Source: Candidatus Nitrosotalea bavarica (GTDB lineage: Archaea > Thermoproteota > Nitrososphaeria > Nitrososphaerales > Nitrosopumilaceae). Taken from it: DNA of 64,000 nucleotides. The position numbers and the translations under genes are program-made. This document shows positions 31,272 through 62,400 of this stretch, piece by piece. The stretch lies in the NCBI RefSeq assembly GCF_900167955.1, contig NZ_FUYK01000007.1, positions 270,173-334,172 of the forward strand, read 5' to 3'. The stretch's first letter is position 1, and the number at the start of each line of letters is the position of its first letter. Below the pieces are notes generated by a model that saw only the letters and a program-made list of their open reading frames with translations, was not told the DNA's origin and ran no database searches.

Positions 31272-33116
31272 CTAATTTGGTATAATCTTAGATCGAATTG
31301 TAATAACTACAATAATTGATAGTATGAAAGTAATTGTGGCCAAGTGCCCAAATTCTGGAACACTGGGGGGATTTGATATTTCTTTGATAGTCACAATCTG
31401 ATAACCATCGTTTCTTACATCATCAATCAAAGATTGAAGTTTTAGAATTTTTTCATTATCTGGTGTATTCATCTTGATTGTGCCATTATTCTGTGCATAA
31501 TCTTGGAAGTTGATTGTAACTACAGCATATCCATTAGCCTGTATGCTGTTACGGATGTCTGTTATGATCTCGTCGTTTGTCATACTCTGATTTGCGTTAT
31601 ACTGTTGTATTGTATCTGTAAATACAGTTGGGGGATAGGAGTGGATTTCTCCTGCTAGAGTTGGTGGAATTTGAGTATCTGCATTTCCACTGATAAAATG
31701 CAAGTCATTGTCAATCATGGAATAAAATGTATCATTGTTAGATTCTCCATATGGTGGAATGAAGACAGATGGTATAATATTCAATATTGCAGATATTCTA
31801 CTTTTTGATTGTTCTAATAATTGCGATTGTTCTGATTTAGTAACTGTGGTGAAATCCTCAAAACTCCATCCGTTTATTCCTACATCAATCCGCCCAGTCT
31901 TTATTTTCGATTTAATGTACTCTGTTAATGTGGTATCATTTCCAAACGCATTGCCAATTACACCAATAGTTAAACTTGCATTTTTTTCCTCAAACACGTC
32001 TATGACTTTGGTTTGTACATTGCTTAACCAATAATCTTGAATATTATCTAATCTGAATGCTACACAATTACAATTTGTAATGATTTTCTGAGGGGAAGGT
32101 ATGGGAATGACTGGCGTTGGAGTTATTAGTGCAGGTGTTGGAGTTACAGGGGTAGTTTCAGGAGTTACTGGTATGGGTGTAGGAATGATTGGCGTAGGTT
32201 CAGAGGCGGTTGGTACTTTTTGGCTCTCTACAATATCAAAAGAAAATTTTGAACCATCTAATGTTATCTGTGAAGTTCCCCATTCTAAATTGTCACTTTT
32301 CTCAATAGCTTTGAAAAGATAATCTCCTACCTTCAAATTGGAGAAATATGCCACTCCGCGTGTTGTTACTGGGGATTGTGAGATTTTATTTCCACTGTTA
32401 TCATAAAGATCTACTACGAAGTCTCCATTTGAAGAAGATACGTGGTGCAATTGGGTATCAAGAATATTTACTGTGATGAGAGTATTTATCACGGGCGGCC
32501 AGTTTGTTATGATTTTTATTTCCTGAGGTATGCCTGGTAAAAGAAGTATTGGTGATTGGGAATATGTTAGATTGTTTCCAATTTTCACATCTGCTATGTA
32601 GAAATCATTTTGAACAGTGGTTGGTTCTAGCCAGAAGCGCATCGTTTTTCCATTTATATCTACAGGACTGTGAGCCCATGTCTTGTTATCTTGAGCACTG
32701 ACGTAAACAGTTGCATTTGATATTGGTGTTACACCATCATCATAAAAAACATTAGCGCGCATTCCTCCTGGAAGTGGTAATTTTATAGTAATGTCTTGAT
32801 GTGGTTGTTGCAAGTTGACATAATTTACACTTGAATACATGCCATTTGCATATGCTTCAATTTTGTACTGATGACCAATAGGCAATGATACAATGTTAAA
32901 CGGATTACCTGATAATGATACAATTTCTTTGTAAGATGTTTGGTTAAAATCCTGATAAATTTTTAGAGATACTGGCCAATAGTCAGCAGTATCGCCATTT
33001 GTATATGTCAATGTGACTGCAACAGAACCTGTTGTATCGGCATATGCTGGAATAGTTGCCCACATTGTTATTGATAATATTGCAATCAATATCCCGCTTA
33101 ACAACAATTTCATCAT
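31272..33116 (-). CDS. PEFG-CTERM surface protein with NodB-like domain
   Basis: Exported protein of about 614 residues. The signal peptide MMKLLLSGILIAILSITMWA starts at ATG 33116, which overlaps the synthase stop (ATGA); a farther start at 33143 would add nine residues. Two to three carboxypeptidase-regulatory-like beta domains (about 30-300) precede a Pro/Thr repeat linker (TPTPIIPTPIPVTPETTPVT and onward). A NodB-like polysaccharide deacetylase domain (about 340-570) follows: FRLDNIQDYW and FIPPYGESNN are recognisable, but the metal-binding HxxxH is replaced (GWSFEDF). The C-terminus carries VPEFGHLA, a hydrophobic helix and RSKIIPN, the thaumarchaeal PEFG-CTERM sorting signal. Coupled to the polysaccharide synthase. 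Confidence 0.85.
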   Translation of the reverse strand: MMKLLLSGILIAILSITMWATIPAYADTTGSVAVTLTYTNGDTADYWPVSLKIYQDFNQTSYKEIVSLSGNPFNIVSLPIGHQYKIEAYANGMYSSVNYVNLQQPHQDITIKLPLPGGMRANVFYDDGVTPISNATVYVSAQDNKTWAHSPVDINGKTMRFWLEPTTVQNDFYIADVKIGNNLTYSQSPILLLPGIPQEIKIITNWPPVINTLITVNILDTQLHHVSSSNGDFVVDLYDNSGNKISQSPVTTRGVAYFSNLKVGDYLFKAIEKSDNLEWGTSQITLDGSKFSFDIVESQKVPTASEPTPIIPTPIPVTPETTPVTPTPALITPTPVIPIPSPQKIITNCNCVAFRLDNIQDYWLSNVQTKVIDVFEEKNASLTIGVIGNAFGNDTTLTEYIKSKIKTGRIDVGINGWSFEDFTTVTKSEQSQLLEQSKSRISAILNIIPSVFIPPYGESNNDTFYSMIDNDLHFISGNADTQIPPTLAGEIHSYPPTVFTDTIQQYNANQSMTNDEIITDIRNSIQANGYAVVTINFQDYAQNNGTIKMNTPDNEKILKLQSLIDDVRNDGYQIVTIKEISNPPSVPEFGHLATITFILSIIVVITIRSKIIPN

Positions 33117-34576
33117 GTCCCGATCCTCTTTGCACTTGTCCATTTTGCCTTTGTCCTAAAAACTGTTTCAAGGCACCCAAATATGAGCAAAATATCGACT
33201 ATTTGCTTGTATCCTATGACAAGAAATGGTGAAAATAGTATCAGTCTGGGATCCTCTCGGTCTATACGGACGGCTAGAGATGACATTAGAGTCTGTAGTA
33301 TGATGAACAAGCCAAACATCTCTACTACAAATACCCAATCTCCGATTAGCACTTCGTATATCGAGGTGACTATCACCACAAGTCCTGCAAATGGCAGTAC
33401 TATCATGGAGATTATCATGAATGGAAATGCAATTCTATACAAAAAAGCATACCTTGGATTAAACAAGGTCTCGGCATGTCTTGTTAATACTTGCAAGTTT
33501 CCACGATACCATCTCTTTCGTTGTTTGTAAAAATCATGAAAAGATTGTGGTGCCTCTGTATAAGCAGTTGAAGTAGTACTTCCAGAAATTACAAATCCAG
33601 ATTTTAATACTTTGATGGTAGCATCAAAGTCTTCCACTAATGTATCCTTGTGATACGTTCCAACATCTTCTAATGCTGTTTTCCTAAATGCGCCCAATGC
33701 TCCTGGAACAATTGTAATTGAGCCAAAAAAATCAAAAGCCCTTCTGATGATCTCAATTCCAGCTACATACTCTAGAGCTTGAGACCATGTGAGCCAATTC
33801 ATTCTGTTTCTTACCTTGATATTTCCTGCAACAGCTGCAACGTTCTTGCCCGTGGAAAATCCTTTGACTAGTTGTTTTAGAGCATTTCTACCAACGATTG
33901 TATCAGCATCAACTATTGCAACTATCTCACCTTTTGCAAATGCAATTCCATGATTGAGAGCTGAAGCTTTTCCCCCATTTTCTTTGTGTAACACTTTGAC
34001 TTTGTTTTTGTATCTGTTTGCTATCTTTAACGTACCATCTTTACTTCCGTCATCAATTACAATTATTTCCTTGTCAGGATAATTTGCATCAAGTAATCCC
34101 TCTATTGTTCTTGCAATTACCTTTTCTTCATTATATGCAGGCACAAGTACGCTAAGAGTTGGATATGTAGCAGGTTCTGGCTGCATGTCTTCCCTAAATT
34201 TACTGTATACTGCAAGTGGCACAAACATCAAAGTACTCCAAAATGTTATGGTCATTCCCCAAAGGATTATGATTCTTGCAGGTGACTCCCATATTGCAAA
34301 TCCTTCGTATGCTGCAACTGTGCCAAGCACAAATGGGAGGGTAATCATAATAGCTGCAAATGGAGAAGGCAGTCTTGCTCCATACTTGAATTTTGATGAG
34401 AGACTACCTCTTGCACTAAGAAGTTGATAGAACATGATAAACGCCGCAAAGGCAAGTGAGATTAAAGTAAGGTTTGTCTTCATTAGATATACTGTAAAAA
34501 ATAAAATGGAAAATATTGCACAAACAAGTAAGATCTGAACATGATCTACTTTAGCCGTTTGAATTTCAGCCACCAT
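33113..34576 (-). CDS. Processive family 2 glycosyltransferase (cellulose/PNAG/hyaluronan synthase type)
   Basis: Membrane polysaccharide synthase of 487 residues. Three N-terminal helices (about 15-125) lead to a GT-A domain with VPAYNEEK, IVIDDGSKDG, the metal site IVDADTIVG, LVEDFDATI (acceptor-side acid) and QRKRW, the QxxRW motif of processive enzymes. Four further helices end the protein. The layout is that of PgaC/IcaA/NodC, which polymerise beta-linked N-acetylglucosamine. The downstream gene overlaps by 4 bp and carries a NodB-like domain, the same pairing as PgaC/PgaB. The actual sugar is not provable from sequence. Confidence 0.9.
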   Translation of the reverse strand: MVAEIQTAKVDHVQILLVCAIFSILFFTVYLMKTNLTLISLAFAAFIMFYQLLSARGSLSSKFKYGARLPSPFAAIMITLPFVLGTVAAYEGFAIWESPARIIILWGMTITFWSTLMFVPLAVYSKFREDMQPEPATYPTLSVLVPAYNEEKVIARTIEGLLDANYPDKEIIVIDDGSKDGTLKIANRYKNKVKVLHKENGGKASALNHGIAFAKGEIVAIVDADTIVGRNALKQLVKGFSTGKNVAAVAGNIKVRNRMNWLTWSQALEYVAGIEIIRRAFDFFGSITIVPGALGAFRKTALEDVGTYHKDTLVEDFDATIKVLKSGFVISGSTTSTAYTEAPQSFHDFYKQRKRWYRGNLQVLTRHAETLFNPRYAFLYRIAFPFMIISMIVLPFAGLVVIVTSIYEVLIGDWVFVVEMFGLFIILQTLMSSLAVRIDREDPRLILFSPFLVIGYKQIVDILLIFGCLETVFRTKAKWTSAKRIGT

Positions 34577-35523: not shown

Positions 35524-36483
35524 ATGTTAGATTATGAAATTGGTAACAAAATCTTGATTGTAGTTGTTATCGTGGCTGGAATAATTGTAGTTTTAATAAA
35601 CCCCTTGGATGTGATTAGTAATTATAATTTTGGACAAAATCTTGCTGACATAAAATCACACACATGTACAAACACCAATATTTCAACTGACTATTCGAAA
35701 GTTATAATTCTGACCTTTGATGACAGCAGAAAAAGTCAGTATTCTTATGCTGTCCCAATCATGGACGAATGTGGTTTTAAAGCAACATTTTTCATAGTAC
35801 GTGACTTTCTGGGACAAGATAACTCTAGAATGACATGGGATGACATTGCAATATTGCAAAACAACGGTTATGACATAGAATCACACACGATGGATCATCG
35901 AGACTTGACAAAAATGTCCTTGCCAGAACTAGATTATGAAATTGGAGGCTCACAGAAGAGCTTTGCTGAACATCATATCAATACCACAATCTTTGCCTCC
36001 CCTTATGGAAATATTTGGAATAATAAAACAGTAATAGATTTAGTCTCAAAATACTATTCTTTTGCAAGGGATGGATATGCTCCTACGATGTTTTTACATT
36101 GTGATGGGTGGCAGACATTTACAAATCAAACTGATTGCAGAACATATTCTGATGATGGTAAATTGAATTTTGCTAGCAGATATTCTATTAGGATGTGGGA
36201 TCACAATTATTATGATATCCTATATTCTCATGACGACAAAAAAATATTTAACTTATTTGTTGATGAAGTAAATCAAGGAACTGTGTTGAACAAACATGGA
36301 ATAATGATGACGTTCCCAGTTATTGCTTATCATAATGTGGATTTTAGAACATCAGATTATAACACTGATGTGAACTTGTTTGCCCAAGAAATGAATTATC
36401 TGCATGACAACGGATTTAGGGTAGTCACTATGGCAGATCTTGGATATGATGAAAATCAGAATGCTCTTTACTTCAAAAAATAA
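35524..36483 (+). CDS. Secreted polysaccharide deacetylase (NodB family)
   Basis: A 319-residue protein anchored by an N-terminal helix (about 7-26, ILIVVVIVAGIIVVLI). The carbohydrate esterase 4 core is intact: motif 1 ILTFDDSRKS with the catalytic and metal Asp, motif 2 SHTMDHRDLT with both metal histidines (HxxxH), and motif 3 ASPYGN. Removes N-acetyl groups from sugar polymers. It is the active counterpart to the degenerate NodB domain of the PEFG protein 2.4 kb upstream. Start TTG/ATG near 35524; AT-rich 125-bp upstream gap. Confidence 0.87.
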   Translation: MLDYEIGNKILIVVVIVAGIIVVLINPLDVISNYNFGQNLADIKSHTCTNTNISTDYSKVIILTFDDSRKSQYSYAVPIMDECGFKATFFIVRDFLGQDNSRMTWDDIAILQNNGYDIESHTMDHRDLTKMSLPELDYEIGGSQKSFAEHHINTTIFASPYGNIWNNKTVIDLVSKYYSFARDGYAPTMFLHCDGWQTFTNQTDCRTYSDDGKLNFASRYSIRMWDHNYYDILYSHDDKKIFNLFVDEVNQGTVLNKHGIMMTFPVIAYHNVDFRTSDYNTDVNLFAQEMNYLHDNGFRVVTMADLGYDENQNALYFKK

Positions 36484-54954: not shown

Positions 54955-55866
54955 ATGTCTGGAAGAAAAAATGACGTTCTTATAATCGAGGATAGTATGG
55001 CCACCACCATTTTACTAAGAGATTTTCTAAAAAAACTAGGATATGAAAATATCGAGGCGTGTACTAACGGAAAGACAGGGATTCGGGTGTTTTCTGAACT
55101 GGAATCTGCTGGAAAAAAGCCTATAGTTCTACTAGACTTTCATCTACCAGATATGAACGCAAACGAAGTGATGGCAAGTATCTTTGACATTCGCCCTGAC
55201 GCAAAAATTATCCTTGAAACTGCGGATTCCAAATCTGATGAGCAAATTAAAGGTGCTCTTAGAGGTGGGGCTTATCTCTATATTGAAAAACCCATCCGAT
55301 TTGAAAATCTCAAAAATGTCTTTGAAACTCTAGAACAAGAGAGAACTATTCTTGAGGAAAAACCCACTGATGATCTTGAAAGAATTACCTCACATCTAAA
55401 ATCTTCTTCAAGGATGAGTTTTGCAAGACTTTCTGAATATTCTGGTACTGAAAACGATCTACTGAAAAAATGTCTTTCACAGCTTGAAACTGAAAAAATC
55501 ATAATAAAAATCTCTGATATAAAAGAAATCTTGTGTAATCAATGTAATTCATTAAGAATTCTTCCTAATTTTTTCTGTCCTGCATGTAATAGTACCAATT
55601 TTATGCAAGGAAAACTAATTGAGCATTTCAAATGTGGTAATGTTTCAGTTGAGGATTCTTACAAAGAAAACAAATGCCCGAAATGTCACAAGGAGATTAA
55701 GATCCTCGGAGTTGATTACAAATCCATGGATAATTATTATATTTGTAAAGACTGCGATGATAAATTTCCAGAACCAACACAAGATTACTTTTGTGTCAAA
55801 TGTAGCAATAGGTTTCCATTAGAAAAGGCAAAATGGATTTCAAGTCCAGGATACAAAACTATTTGA
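54955..55866 (+). CDS. Response regulator with C-terminal zinc ribbons
   Basis: A 303-residue protein. The receiver domain (residues 1-125) has the phosphoacceptor Asp61 in VLLDFHLPDM, acidic residues EDS, and YIEKP. A short winged-helix-like region follows (SSRMSFARLSEYSGTENDLLKKCLSQLETEKII). Two to three Cys4 ribbons end it: CNQC...CPAC, CGN...CPKC and CKDC...CVKC. This output is probably protein- or nucleic-acid-binding. Upstream of the divergent single-domain receiver and HPt genes and the kinase, hence part of the same phosphorelay. Confidence 0.85.
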   Translation: MSGRKNDVLIIEDSMATTILLRDFLKKLGYENIEACTNGKTGIRVFSELESAGKKPIVLLDFHLPDMNANEVMASIFDIRPDAKIILETADSKSDEQIKGALRGGAYLYIEKPIRFENLKNVFETLEQERTILEEKPTDDLERITSHLKSSSRMSFARLSEYSGTENDLLKKCLSQLETEKIIIKISDIKEILCNQCNSLRILPNFFCPACNSTNFMQGKLIEHFKCGNVSVEDSYKENKCPKCHKEIKILGVDYKSMDNYYICKDCDDKFPEPTQDYFCVKCSNRFPLEKAKWISSPGYKTI

Positions 55867-55867
55867 T

Positions 55868-56230
55868 CTATTGTTTAATGACCTTGGTGATAATATCTAA
55901 TACTTCTTGAAAATTAAATGGTTTTAGAATATATGCTCTGGCACCTAACCTTAGACACTCTTTTACAGTCTGTTGATTATCACTAGCTGAGATCATAATC
56001 ACATTTGCAACTGGATTGAATTCAATTATTTCTTTGAGTACTGAAACGCCATCTTTTTTTGGCATTGCCATATCTAGCAAGACAATGTCTGGTTTTAATT
56101 TGATATATTCTTGCAAAGCCCCCTCGCCATTTTGTAGTTCTCCAGCCAGCTTGTGCTTGCCTATAGTTACAATGTCCTTCAAAACCATTCTGATTGCATC
56201 AGAATCATCAACTATCATAACACTGGCCAT
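55868..56230 (-). CDS. Single-domain response regulator (CheY-like)
   Basis: A stand-alone receiver of 120 residues from ATG 56230 (MASVMIVDDSDAIRMVLKDI); a start 24 bp upstream would add eight residues. Acidic pair in VDDSD, phosphoacceptor Asp in IVLLDMAMPKKDG, Ser in VIMISASD, and Lys in ILKPFNFQE. It is a carrier that probably moves phosphate between the HPt protein and the kinase. Same strand as the HPt gene, 43 bp away. Confidence 0.9.
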   Translation of the reverse strand: MASVMIVDDSDAIRMVLKDIVTIGKHKLAGELQNGEGALQEYIKLKPDIVLLDMAMPKKDGVSVLKEIIEFNPVANVIMISASDNQQTVKECLRLGARAYILKPFNFQEVLDIITKVIKQ

Positions 56231-56273
56231 GCCATATAGATCATAATGTGTCATATATAATTACGAGTGTAAA

Positions 56274-56642
56274 TTAAAAACCTGAAATGTCAGGATATGT
56301 TTGAATTATTTGTTTTCTGAAATTATCTATCTCTATGTTAGTACCTCCCTTGAAAAGATGATTCATTTTTTGAACAGCTTCCAAAATTATATCATGTGAG
56401 TCTTTCAACACACCGTGATTTATGACATGTTTTAAAATCAAATCACTTATTCTGGCAATCTCTCCTACTTTTTCCTGTCCCATCATGGGTGCCAAACCCT
56501 TGATTTTGTGCATATGTTTTTCAATCTCTGTTGATTTTTTATAGAATTGTTCATCATTAGCGCATGTAAGAAAGGCTTCTTTCAAACTGTTTATCTCTGA
56601 TTGTATCTCTTGCCTTGCTACCTTTAGAAACTCTTCAGACAT
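56274..56642 (-). CDS. Histidine phosphotransfer (HPt) protein
   Basis: A 122-residue helical protein. Four helices carry the HPt signature EKHMHKIKGLAPMMG with phosphoacceptor His45 (H-x-x-K-G), followed by VGEIARISDLILKHVI. It is of the CheA P1 type but without the kinase domains. It would relay phosphate to the two receivers encoded next to it. 49 bp from the divergent histidine kinase gene. Free-standing HPt genes are rare in archaea. Confidence 0.85.
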   Translation of the reverse strand: MSEEFLKVARQEIQSEINSLKEAFLTCANDEQFYKKSTEIEKHMHKIKGLAPMMGQEKVGEIARISDLILKHVINHGVLKDSHDIILEAVQKMNHLFKGGTNIEIDNFRKQIIQTYPDISGF

Positions 56643-56691
56643 TTTGACTTCTTACTGCATAACAATTATACTAACTTTTATACCGCTCTGA

Positions 56692-58581
56692 ATGGTTTTT
56701 TTATTTGTGAAACTTACACAAAAGACCTACCTACTACTTGCAGTCATAATTGGGGTCTCTGCCGTGAATCTCTATCTTCTTATATTTACATCTCAAGAAA
56801 ATCAAGATGTTTTACATTCTATTAGTTATGCAAGTGATCTTAAAGTCATAGTTGAAAGAATTGGAGGTACTGCCAACTCAATTGCTGGTGGTAATGAAGC
56901 AGATAGACCTACTTTGGAAACTCAAGTATCTGATTTTGATACAACTTATGCAAAACTTGGAGAAGGTGGAAATATTGGAGGACTGAATATTGTTGCATCT
57001 CCATCTGAATTAAGACCCGCATATGATAAAGTGGGAGATCAATGGACTCCATACAAAGAAGATGCGGAAAAAATAAAACAAGAAAATATTTTTGATGCGC
57101 ATGTTGTGGATGATCTAAAATATGTACTTGGAAAAAATGGGCAGATGATTTCATTGACAAATGGTATTAGTAATGACCTAATGCCATTGGACAGAAATTA
57201 CAATCCGCATAAAATTATTGCTCTTGAGATGACAAGTATTGCACAAGACATTGGTGAAAAAACATTATTGTATTCTATTGGTGAAGGTGGAAATGTTACA
57301 TCTTCTCTGAAAAAAGATCGAATCACTTTTGATGCTGATTTGAAAAAACTGGAAGGACTTCCATTAAATGATACTGAATTTGCAAATTATACTATATCTC
57401 AAGATACACTTGCAGTAATTCCTAGGGAAAACTCTGATTCTATACGACAACTTGATCCTTTATGGGAATCTGTCCGCGCAAAATTAATTTTTATTGAATC
57501 TAATACTTTACTATCAAAAGATTTTGGGGCTGCATTGACGAGCCTGAATTCACAAAGAAACCTATTACTTGATGCTACATCAGACTTTGTAAACCAATGG
57601 AATTTACTAATAGATTCTAAACTTCATTCAAATGTCATAGTGGTTCAATTGTTAATAGTTGCAGATATTGCAGTATTTGTCTCAGTGGTATTATCCATTA
57701 GGCGCTCATTATCTCCTCTTGAATCTTTGACAAAAGTCATGGGTCGTGTCAAAGAGGGATTTTATGGTGAAAAAATTAATTATTCATCAAAAGATGAGAT
57801 TGGAGAATTAGCAGAAACCTTCAATTCAATGTCTTCTACCATACAGAAAAAAGAGGAAGAAGCAAAGAAAGTAGAGACTGCAAAAGATGAATTTCTTGCA
57901 ATGGTTACTCATGAACTAAAAACACCACTTGTTCCAATTCAGGGATACTCTGATATCCTACTTGGCGAACACCTTGGTTCTCTAAACAACGCACAAAAAG
58001 AAAGATTACAAATAATCAGTTCTAGTGCTTCTACTTTGTTACAATTAATCTCTGATTTACTTGATGCGCAAAAATTGGATCTTGGTCAACTAAGAATCAA
58101 GAAAGAGAGAAACAATCTCCAAGAGTCTGTAGAAAAAACAATAACTTCAATGCAGCCTCAAGCTGCGGCTGATAACATTTCTCTTACTTATTCTGTAGGA
58201 AAAGACATCTATGCATTTTATGACGATGTTAGAATTAAACAGGTGCTTACAAATCTAATCAAAAATAGCTTAAAGGCAACTTCTCCAAAGACAGGAAAAG
58301 TCGAAGTAACTGTTGAAGAAAAAATATCTGAGGTAATAGTCTCAGTCAAGGATAATGGACGTGGAATACCAGCTGAGGCAACAGATGGGATTTTCAAAAA
58401 GTTCTATCAAGTTGATACTACCAGTACAAGAGAAAAAGGTGGCAGTGGTCTAGGATTGTCCATTTGTAAAGGTATTGTAGAAGCCCATGGTGGCAGAATT
58501 TGGATGGTAAGCGAATTATCAAAGGGTACGACATTTTCATTTACAATTCCAAAAACTGAAGTATATAAAACTCCGATATAG
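56692..58581 (+). CDS. Membrane sensor histidine kinase (HAMP-HisKA-HATPase)
   Basis: A 629-residue kinase. An N-terminal helix (12-33) and an outside domain of about 280 residues with heliced segments are followed by a second helix (about 317-337) and HAMP (SLTKVMGRVKEGFYGEKINYSSKDEIGELAETF). HisKA follows with phospho-His in AMVTHELKTPLVPIQGYSD. HATPase boxes are NLIKNSLKA (N), VKDNGRGIPA (G1) and GGSGLGLSICKGI (G2). The ligand is unknown. ATG at 56692; a GTG at 56707 is possible. Donor of the phosphorelay. Confidence 0.92.
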   Translation: MVFLFVKLTQKTYLLLAVIIGVSAVNLYLLIFTSQENQDVLHSISYASDLKVIVERIGGTANSIAGGNEADRPTLETQVSDFDTTYAKLGEGGNIGGLNIVASPSELRPAYDKVGDQWTPYKEDAEKIKQENIFDAHVVDDLKYVLGKNGQMISLTNGISNDLMPLDRNYNPHKIIALEMTSIAQDIGEKTLLYSIGEGGNVTSSLKKDRITFDADLKKLEGLPLNDTEFANYTISQDTLAVIPRENSDSIRQLDPLWESVRAKLIFIESNTLLSKDFGAALTSLNSQRNLLLDATSDFVNQWNLLIDSKLHSNVIVVQLLIVADIAVFVSVVLSIRRSLSPLESLTKVMGRVKEGFYGEKINYSSKDEIGELAETFNSMSSTIQKKEEEAKKVETAKDEFLAMVTHELKTPLVPIQGYSDILLGEHLGSLNNAQKERLQIISSSASTLLQLISDLLDAQKLDLGQLRIKKERNNLQESVEKTITSMQPQAAADNISLTYSVGKDIYAFYDDVRIKQVLTNLIKNSLKATSPKTGKVEVTVEEKISEVIVSVKDNGRGIPAEATDGIFKKFYQVDTTSTREKGGSGLGLSICKGIVEAHGGRIWMVSELSKGTTFSFTIPKTEVYKTPI

Positions 58582-60614: not shown

Positions 60615-61192
60615 ATCTAGTAACGCGTTCATTTTATGCTCGTGATACGGTAAAAGTTGCTCAAGACTTGCTTGGGAAAATTCTGGTTAGAAATATTGAT
60701 GGAAATATGATCTCTGGAATAATTACAGAGACTGAAGCTTACAAGTATAAAGATGATGCCGCAAGTCACTCGTTTAGAGGTATGACCGAGAGAAACAAAG
60801 CCATGTTTGGCGAAGTTGGTAGGGCGTATGTTTACTTTACATATGGAATGCATTATTGTGTTAATGCTGTAGCGCGAAGTTCTGATTATCCAGCAGGTGC
60901 TGTTTTAATCAGATCACTTTTTCCACAGGATGGAATAGACTTTATGTTAAAGCAACGAAAATCTATGGATGTTTCTAATCTTACAAACGGTCCTGCCAAA
61001 TTGACACAGGCATTAAAAATAACCAAGAAGGAGTATGGTGAAGATCTAACTAAAAGATATAATCTGTTTGTAATGGATGGGATGAAAATAAAAAGATCAG
61101 AGATCAAGGCCGGACCGCGAATTGGAATAAAAAAAGCACTCACCAACCTATGGAATTTTAAAATTTCAAAAAATATTCTTGAAGATAATTAA
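60611..61192 (+). CDS. 3-methyladenine DNA glycosylase (AAG/MPG family)
   Basis: Excises alkylated bases. The 193-residue protein has KILVRNIDGNMISGIITETEAY (catalytic Glu), FTYGMHYCVNAVA (Tyr/His intercalation loop), GAVLIRSLFP, LTNGPAKLTQALKI and a C-terminal GPRIGIKKA. This is the full AAG fold. Coupled to UDG by a 4-bp overlap. A eukaryotic/bacterial family, scattered in archaea. Confidence 0.93.
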   Translation: MNLVTRSFYARDTVKVAQDLLGKILVRNIDGNMISGIITETEAYKYKDDAASHSFRGMTERNKAMFGEVGRAYVYFTYGMHYCVNAVARSSDYPAGAVLIRSLFPQDGIDFMLKQRKSMDVSNLTNGPAKLTQALKITKKEYGEDLTKRYNLFVMDGMKIKRSEIKAGPRIGIKKALTNLWNFKISKNILEDN

Positions 61193-62400
61193 GATGATGG
61201 AACAGGCCTTGCTTCGAGTGTGGCAGTCAAGTCCATTGATTTTCCTTGCCTGTTAATTGAAACTATTACTTTATCTCCTACATTTTTCTGTTCATCTAGG
61301 TATGCAATGACGTCATAAATTGTCTTTACTTGATGACCGTTTATAGCTGTTATGATGTCTCCCCCATGCGGAATATTGTTTTCATCAGGTGTAGCTGGTA
61401 TTATTCCTGCTTTATCAGCAGGTCCTCCCTTGACTGTTTGTTCAACTAATACTCCCTTGAAGTTTCTTGGTAATCCGTTTGCAAGAGCAATATCTGGATC
61501 TAGACTTCTTCCCGATATGCCAAGATATGGATGAGTATAGTTTCCATTTTTAATTAAAACTGGAACAATTCTGTTAATTGTATTAGATGGTACTGCAAAT
61601 CCAATTCCTGCAAAATCTCCAGTGCTAGTTTTGATAGCAGTATTCATTCCTATCACTTGACTGTTCAAGTCTAATAATGGCCCACCAGAATTTCCTGGAT
61701 TGATGGCGGCATCTACTTGGATTATGTCTGGTATTGAAAATCCTGCAGCGTTCTCATTTGGAAGTAGTCTTCCTACTTGGCTTATTATGCCAGTTGTCAT
61801 TGTATCACTAAGCCCAAATGGATTGCCAATTGCAATAACCTGTTGTCCTACATCAAGTTGTGATGAATTCCCAAGAGTTAGCGGAATGAGAGTCTCATCT
61901 GAGAAATTATCTATTATCTGTATTACTGCAATGTCATTTCCTGGGTCAGTACCGACAACTTTTGCAGTGTATGTATTTCCATCAATAAAAGTTACATTTA
62001 CTGTTTTTGATCCGTCAACTACGTGATTATTGGTAATAATTCTTCCATCTTTATCGTAGATAAAACCCGAACCAAGTCTTGTAGATTGATCTTCTAACGG
62101 TGCACCGTTAATTATGATACTGTTGTCCGTGGTTGTTACCTTGCTTGTTATCTGGACCACTGAATTTTCAACGTTCTTGAAAATATGGGTAAGGATAGAA
62201 TCTGTTGTTATACTTGACAATCCCTCCATGCCTGGCGGTCCTGGTGGACCTGGAGGCCCAGGTGGCCCTTGTGGTCCAGTCTGACCTTGAACAGTTGCCT
62301 GCGATATTTCATTTAATGTCCTTCCATTGGTAAATTGTACCAGAACTGTAGCCGAAAGGGCGATAATTATTCCAATGAGAATGACTTCAAATTTTTTCAT
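61189..62400 (-). CDS. HtrA-like membrane-anchored protease with collagen-like stretch and PDZ
   Basis: A 403-residue S1C protease. Membrane anchor at residues 5-22. Residues 42-60 form six Gly-x-y triplets (GPQGPPGPPGPPGPPGMEG), a collagen-like spacer. Triad His126 (NNHVVD), Asp156 (GNDIAVI) and Ser238 (GNSGGPLL). The PDZ domain (about 285-395) has GGPADKAGI and GGDIITAINGHQVKT. A paralog of the protease at 1183-2355, which lacks the collagen stretch. Its stop overlaps the convergent glycosylase gene by 4 bp. Confidence 0.93.
   Translation of the reverse strand: MKKFEVILIGIIIALSATVLVQFTNGRTLNEISQATVQGQTGPQGPPGPPGPPGPPGMEGLSSITTDSILTHIFKNVENSVVQITSKVTTTDNSIIINGAPLEDQSTRLGSGFIYDKDGRIITNNHVVDGSKTVNVTFIDGNTYTAKVVGTDPGNDIAVIQIIDNFSDETLIPLTLGNSSQLDVGQQVIAIGNPFGLSDTMTTGIISQVGRLLPNENAAGFSIPDIIQVDAAINPGNSGGPLLDLNSQVIGMNTAIKTSTGDFAGIGFAVPSNTINRIVPVLIKNGNYTHPYLGISGRSLDPDIALANGLPRNFKGVLVEQTVKGGPADKAGIIPATPDENNIPHGGDIITAINGHQVKTIYDVIAYLDEQKNVGDKVIVSINRQGKSMDLTATLEARPVPSS

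Follow-up and report, generated by a model that had tools for sequence, protein, structure and literature searches.

A conserved kinase, CheY-like receiver and free-standing HPt protein in ammonia-oxidising archaea, and a possible phosphorelay to a TackOD1 response regulator

Ammonia-oxidising archaea are important nitrifiers, and what triggers their attachment and biofilm formation is an open question. Many archaeal receivers (REC) are orphans, and the 2018 census, in the text compared here, finds no conserved neighbourhood for most archaeal REC-only regulators (PMC5847659). A 64,000-nucleotide stretch of DNA (the window) from the Nitrosotalea-type ammonia-oxidising archaeon Candidatus Nitrosotalea bavarica (assembly of 1.55 Mb in 19 contigs, 97% complete) holds a locus that gives one such receiver a kinase, a carrier and a candidate output, and TackOD1 a role that can be put to the test. 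Four neighbouring genes, predicted originally from the sequence alone and now confirmed as open reading frames (ORFs) with family matches, encode a membrane kinase, a histidine phosphotransfer (HPt) protein, a CheY-like receiver and a receiver followed by a winged helix-turn-helix (wHTH) and the zinc ribbons of a TackOD1 domain (REC-wHTH-TackOD1, here TackRR; Table 1). The order kinase-receiver-HPt-receiver put forward in the original prediction remains the best reading: joint conservation, joint absence, a shared promoter region and co-occurrence with TackOD1 regulators speak for it, and the frequent absence of TackRR from the locus speaks against it.

Table 1. Coordinates of the proposed relay components, their promoter element and the polysaccharide gene pair in the window.
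Feature	Position	Strand	Remarks
TackRR, response regulator REC-wHTH-TackOD1, proposed terminal acceptor	54955..55866	+	expected phospho-acceptor Asp61; Pfam, alignment, model
CheY-like single-domain receiver, proposed Spo0F-like intermediate	55868..56230	-	ORF called to 56254; Pfam Response_reg 90.5 bits
Free-standing HPt	56274..56642	-	upstream of CheY, same strand; His45 in HKIKGLAPMM; Pfam, alignments, profile, model
TATAAAA (minus) / TTTTATA (plus), TATA element between HPt and kinase starts	56676..56682	.	34/35 loci
Membrane sensor histidine kinase (PilJ-like sensor region, HAMP, HisKA, HATPase_c)	56707..58581	+	ORF 56692-58581; Pfam
Polysaccharide deacetylase (PF01522), N-terminal signal-like segment	31272..33143	-	48% over 598 amino acids to unlinked-TackRR neighbour
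Membrane glycosyltransferase family 2 (GT2) synthase, QxxRW (QRKRWYRG), PgaC/IcaA-like	33113..34576	-	52% over 476 amino acids to unlinked-TackRR neighbour; frame overlaps deacetylase

The HPt ORF scores 22.1 bits (E 1.8e-4) against Pfam Hpt (PF01627), below the gathering cut-off of 24.6, and we place it with the HPt and CheA P1 domains because of profile and fold comparison. Its profile matches that of archaeal CheA P1 domains (hhalign 97.5%, E 7.5e-12), and among solved chains it matches the CheA P1 domains 2ld6 (E 2.4e-5) and 1tqg (E 1.9e-4), with one engineered repeat protein ranked between the two. The AlphaFold model is all-helical, with a predicted local distance difference test score (pLDDT) of 94 and a predicted template modelling score (pTM) of 0.88; its ten best Foldseek matches in the PDB are CheA P1 domains or structures, at weak E values of 0.03-0.07, and designed helical bundles come next. 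The predicted phospho-accepting histidine, in an HxxKG motif, sits on a helical bundle in the model. His45, correctly singled out in the original prediction, has no exception in alignments of 41 and 37 rows, each including the window. Gly49, Lys48 and Asp67 are invariant in the 37 rows; for the last two the 41-row alignment has exceptions in L037 (R48, A67) and L071 (M48). The pattern HK[IL][KM]GLAP is matched by 112 of 113 HPt ORFs, and the remaining one retains the histidine. Taken together, the profile match, the fold matches and the preserved HxxKG motif identify the protein, by sequence and model comparison, as a free-standing relative of CheA P1. Outside the family f1, HPt matches among 398 genomes of the phylum occur in 10 genomes, all in ORFs of 530-753 amino acids; five of these ORFs were inspected, and all five carry a CheA-like P1 near the N-terminus.

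The phylogenetic profile that the original prediction called for finds the HPt in 73 of 121 family genomes, leaving 48 HPt-negative. We took 40 module loci with their flanks from the 73 HPt genomes, chosen to be well spread and to lie on contigs with enough room. Every one of the 40 has kinase, HPt and CheY, which argues that the module is not a chance arrangement, and its usual flanks are a PIN-ATPase gene on one side and TldD and UDG genes on the other. A second set of 74 loci from named public genomes, whose organisms overlap with those of the first, contains the kinase in all 74. An intact HPt ORF is present in 73, the exception being L091 with its internal stop, and CheY is likewise present in 73, the exception being L130, whose contig stops at that point. 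The sensor region of the kinase is found in 63 of the 73 HPt genomes vs 0 of the 48 HPt-negative ones. The ten HPt genomes without it belong to genera g18 and g21, and in the four inspected (G018, G021, G071, G077) a short sensor-less kinase of about 350 amino acids adjoins the HPt. The kinases of genus g18 and of G021, beside HPt and CheY, keep HAMP-like, HisKA and HATPase parts and are without the extracytoplasmic sensor (L123, L124 and L129, at 3.8-4.95 kb; L056).

The components are also absent together. The PIN-ATPase flank was sought in 20 of the 48 HPt-negative genomes and found in 17, whose loci were compared; one of these, L074, was excluded since its contig ends inside TackRR. The remaining 16 loci give no tblastn hit to HPt or to the kinase at E 1e-3, and their CheY is missing or, in L075 and L076, reduced to a remnant; some of these loci (e.g. 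L078, L079, L083) differ at the other flank too. Both HPt and kinase are interrupted in G109. At the module site of G108, between TldD and PIN-ATPase, lies an ORF of 1314 amino acids (L072:3202-7146). A quick tree was built from 56 PIN-ATPase rows, of which 39 are HPt-positive, 16 are HPt-negative and 1 is uncounted. On this tree, in which the root was not inferred and long branches meet, module presence requires 8 changes, which fit one gain and about seven losses. Where pairs differ in HPt, the kinase follows in 7.6 of 8 and goes the opposite way in none (median p 0.008).

All four domain matches of the kinase (HAMP, HisKA, HATPase_c and PilJ) are above cut-off, and its start, judged from relatives, is probably the GTG at 56707 rather than 56692. 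The H-box is found in 107 of 111 kinase ORFs longer than 330 amino acids; the other four are cut, split or a second kinase-like ORF at a locus end. The CheY-like protein probably starts at the ATG at 56230, as its relatives begin MA. Acidic pocket, phospho-Asp and KPF pattern are preserved in 108 of 117 CheY-type ORFs, the nine exceptions being variants, second copies, cut ORFs or a remnant. In three loci a second CheY-like gene, with EDS replacing DDS, adjoins the module receiver (L043:6011-6370, L117:3124-3495, L116:2671-3051). Kinase, both receivers and HPt are all present in the window with their catalytic residues. Of 35 loci, 34 have TATAAAA at 31-41 bases ahead of the HPt start, against a mean of 0.68 and a maximum of 3 in dinucleotide shuffles. 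On the opposite strand, 23 of the 34 have a candidate kinase start codon at a distance of 23-27 bases from it; the remaining 11 have no candidate kinase start, or one at another distance, by the pattern used. The divergent HPt-CheY and kinase genes may share a single TATA box, these related sequences not being independent of one another.

A hybrid kinase as the source of the first phospho-Asp was considered and rejected for this organism: no single frame in its assembly holds both HATPase_c and REC, and therefore the first Asp must sit on a separate receiver. The CheY-like protein would be the natural first acceptor, and the HPt would need a second one. In the relay that we propose, the kinase would autophosphorylate on its HisKA histidine, as its family suggests, and pass the phosphoryl group to the CheY-like receiver, a step to which neighbourhood and joint loss point. 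The receiver would in turn phosphorylate His45 of the HPt, and the HPt would phosphorylate a TackRR encoded next door or elsewhere, as linkage and co-occurrence suggest. We regard the relay core of kinase, CheY and HPt as more likely than not.

Likeness to CheA P1 suggests a different role, in which the HPt is a detached P1 still engaged in chemotaxis, phosphorylated in trans by CheA and feeding a CheY. The profile and structural matches described above favour it, as does CheW: 31 of the 121 genomes have CheW, and 27 of those 31 are HPt-positive (Fisher p 5e-4, uncorrected for kinship), and CheW is present in the organism's own assembly. However, CheW gives no match in 46 of the 73 HPt genomes, so that the outcome named in the original prediction as fatal to it, an HPt that pairs with nothing but a chemotaxis kinase, has little in its favour. 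On the tree, HPt and CheW show no joint trend (median p 0.6), and a HisKA kinase accompanies the HPt at every one of the 40 module loci. The residue 22 positions after the histidine, Glu in CheA P1, is Asp in 37 of 37 free HPt rows and Ala in L037. The HPt is free-standing and not fused to CheA, and the genomes without a CheW match speak against dependence on CheA or CheW. Chemotaxis was rejected as the principal account on the CheW counts and the tree, the raw association not being nil, and we consider the detached-P1 role quite improbable. The organism's own genome cannot decide the question: CheW lies on a contig of 3532 bases (C3) that stops just past it, and CheA P1 was not found in the assembly, where a gap is possible. 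CheA may accordingly be missing from the assembly, and its count of one HPt is a lower bound. Contig C3 (L189) also carries ORFs that look chemoreceptor-like by eye, and appears to be a chemotaxis locus cut in the assembly.

That single HPt match stands beside 18 receiver and 16 HATPase_c matches in the same assembly (all lower bounds), and REC-rich G092, with 34 RECs, likewise has one match to the module HPt. Such numbers would suit a general hub, in which a single HPt connects a number of orphan kinases and receivers, with TackRR among its many clients; Ypd1 and ChpT are precedents. Against this, the HPt-negative genomes G108 and G069 keep 12 RECs each, with 12 and 6 HATPase matches respectively, and these therefore do not need the HPt; the dedicated kinase, for its part, has its sensor region in no HPt-negative genome. 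A hub is unlikely on this balance.

We turn to the last step of the proposed relay. The zinc-ribbon output seen in the original prediction is there, but it is not undescribed: it is TackOD1 (PF18551), reported in 2018, with REC-wHTH-TackOD1 among the listed architectures. The ORF scores 52.6 bits against Response_reg and 86.9 bits against TackOD1 (cut-off 32), and its output domain has 11 Cys as 5 CxxC, plus HxxC; by sequence it is a TackOD1 protein. E12, D13, D61, K112 and the Cys/His ligands are invariant in 19 sequences. Its model (pLDDT 82, pTM 0.46) retrieves receiver-type structures, none bearing on TackOD1 itself. Receivers solved together with HPt proteins of the Ypd1 type are among the rows with the highest Z, from which nothing is drawn because rows within 1 Z are tied. 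Weak TackOD1 matches on the organism's contig C10 (L219) and in L220 have no hit to the TackRR profile, and long TackOD1 proteins (in L221-L228) were set aside as a separate class.

TackRR is found at 12 of the 40 module loci, one of them a decayed remnant (L035), and is accessory there. Linkage as the whole argument for TackRR was rejected for this reason, and we used genome-wide co-occurrence instead. With the wHTH-TackOD1 part as query and a limit of at least 125 bits, TackRR-type genes occur in 57 of the 121 genomes. Of these, 55 are HPt-positive; the 2 that are HPt-negative, G083 and G120, are each 78% complete. This count omits weaker matches (G041 at 89 bits, and others) and G058, whose copy holds stops; REC was confirmed in the copies read, which cover a part of the 57 genomes. 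Pairs that differ in HPt differ in TackRR in the same way in 6.5 of 8 and in the opposite way in 0 (median p 0.031, range 0.008-0.06). G079 has five receivers in all, and two of them are the module CheY and TackRR. Receivers were tallied by hand in nine HPt-negative and seven HPt-positive genomes. Four of the nine have 0, and the others have 12 (G108), 12 (G069), 5 (G011), 4 (G013) and 3 (G059, one a CheY remnant). TackRR-type proteins make up 0 of 36 RECs in these five vs 9 of 111 in the seven HPt-positive genomes, numbers too few to settle the matter. We lean slightly towards TackRR as an acceptor of the relay.

What TackRR might control is suggested by its copies outside the relay. Of 68 matches at or above the limit, 21 are at the module and 47 elsewhere, linked and unlinked copies being assigned by hand from coordinates. 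Twenty of the 47 were inspected, drawn from 19 genomes. Each aligns with the TackRR of the window across receiver and output part, and 18 keep the phospho-Asp context, with Gly there in L202 and L212. Two gene families recur nearby, one encoding a polysaccharide deacetylase whose start is signal-like and the other a QxxRW-bearing membrane GT2 synthase. In tblastn with queries from five of the unlinked loci, the deacetylase is found in 14 of the 20, the synthase in 14 and at least one in 16. The four without either are L202 and L212, with degenerate receivers, and L203 and L218, with TackRR at a contig edge. The polysaccharide pair is not near either of the Gly-bearing regulators (L202:2820-3815, L212:2442-3446). 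Gene orders vary: the pair stands on the same strand before TackRR (L199, L200), convergent to it (e.g. L204-L206) or on the same strand after it (L209, L217). Among 229 records compared, matches to the two proteins beyond the 20 loci occur only in the window, in G007 (L040, L111) and weakly in L086. The G007 deacetylase match is a short stretch of another secreted protein, and inside the G007 relay locus TackRR is directly preceded by a different GT2 and a protein that looks secreted. On the TackRR tree, unlinked copies of G079 and G085 group with linked ones from their own genus (99/95), and one unlinked G022 copy groups with linked ones from another genus (98/99). Close relatives of TackRR thus adjoin the relay in some genomes and polysaccharide genes in others, mixed on the tree. 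From these neighbourhoods, TackRR would act on an exopolysaccharide system of PgaC-like synthase and secreted deacetylase, and hence on attachment or biofilm, an output that we put forward tentatively, at somewhat less than an even chance.

Three further observations concern this gene class or lie nearby. A second deacetylase in the window, with weak NodB/PgaB matches (35524-36483, plus strand), forms a candidate exopolysaccharide locus together with 31272-34576 (minus strand). The GT2 synthase next to TackRR in L214 (1042-3012) has an N-terminal LIM-like zinc motif (25 bits, cut-off 23). An HtrA-like protease at 61189-62400 (minus strand) of the window has a short collagen-like Gly-Pro-Pro run in its N-terminal region.

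Several points weigh against the relay with this output. Neighbouring genes can go missing together through single deletions, and the module may never have been present on the deepest HPt-negative branches. TackRR is missing in 27 of 38 loci that span CheY to PIN-ATPase, and 18 of the 73 HPt genomes (G058 counted) are without an intact TackRR-type gene, so TackRR cannot be the sole acceptor. Since four of nine HPt-negative genomes are without any REC, a general loss of two-component genes explains part of its co-absence. In 11 of the 20 unlinked loci there is also a DsbA-like neighbour and one that we take to be HMG-CoA-synthase-like (clusters c3 and c4), so these loci possibly reflect one inherited location in that clade and not repeated selection. 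In the window, the polysaccharide pair lies about 20 kb from TackRR, and the synthase reaches 216 bits against its best NCBIfam match, PgaC/IcaA (TIGR03937), whose equivalog cut-off is 422, so the polymer is not identifiable from the match. TackOD1 proteins are also found in type IV pilus loci, according to the portion of the literature compared, which offers another possible output.

The same absences of TackRR speak for a third alternative, in which the kinase phosphorylates the CheY-like receiver as the final output, the HPt is a phosphate buffer or sink that stores or drains the receiver's phosphoryl groups, and TackRR answers to another kinase. Stand-alone receivers are the most frequent regulators of these archaea, by the part of the census compared (PMC5847659), which also suits a sink. 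The near restriction of TackRR-type genes to HPt-positive genomes argues against it, as do linked TackRR copies in more than one part of the TackRR tree, and we consider a sink rather unlikely. For the four-step His-Asp-His-Asp relay of separate proteins, followed by exopolysaccharide, which is the simplest account, we see the sequence evidence as evenly balanced. Its fullest form is a possibility that we advance with reserve: a CheA-P1-type HPt was freed in an ancestor of the ammonia-oxidising archaea and joined an ordinary membrane kinase and a CheY-like receiver in a Spo0-like relay of separate proteins, whose TackOD1 regulator controls a PgaC-like exopolysaccharide. If true, this would be a relay in archaea that has an HPt protein of its own and is predicted to act on surface attachment, would give TackOD1 a first function, and may set when ammonia-oxidising archaea attach to surfaces.

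We compared these results with the available text of seven papers (PMC5847659, PMC4558063, PMC11784639, PMC6944256, PMC4836417, PMC10782961 and PMC4858521). The TackOD1 domain was already known; the conservation of kinase, HPt and CheY, the shared TATA element, the co-occurrence of TackRR and the polysaccharide neighbourhoods are added here. Titles and abstract openings among the matches listed in the open-licence literature hold no account of the module, and a description elsewhere is possible. HPt proteins are reported in 7 of 11 Thaumarchaeota species in the text compared (PMC4558063). The window gene shares REC-wHTH-TackOD1 architecture, 11 Cys and 5 CxxC plus HxxC with the TackOD1 response regulators of Galperin et al. 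2018 (PMC5847659; arCOG06883). The text compared of that paper calls the function obscure, mentions HPt a single time in the main text, in connection with the hybrid kinases of Methanomicrobia, and links TackOD1 to neither a kinase-CheY-HPt module nor a polysaccharide pair. MA4377 of Methanosarcina acetivorans is likewise an archaeal kinase that feeds REC-only proteins and is argued to be part of a phosphorelay; it differs as a hybrid kinase. The 2025 study searched that genome for an HPt partner and found three HPt proteins, two CheA-like and one with a C-terminal HPt, none shown as a partner in the portion compared (PMC11784639).

The polysaccharide pair resembles PgaC/PgaB and IcaA/IcaB in that a QxxRW GT2 synthase adjoins a polysaccharide deacetylase, and differs in the score of its synthase; this is a likeness in how the systems may work, with no search made for other pga or ica partners. 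The HPt shares with CheA P1 the HxxKG motif, the helical fold and the profile match, and differs in standing free beside a HisKA kinase, in its Asp (Ala in one) after the histidine and in the many genomes without a CheW match. A parallel for the whole is the Spo0 relay of Bacillus, Kin-Spo0F-Spo0B-Spo0A. In both, kinase, single-domain receiver, histidine carrier and output regulator are separate proteins, whereas Spo0B is not an HPt domain and the output regulators are unrelated.

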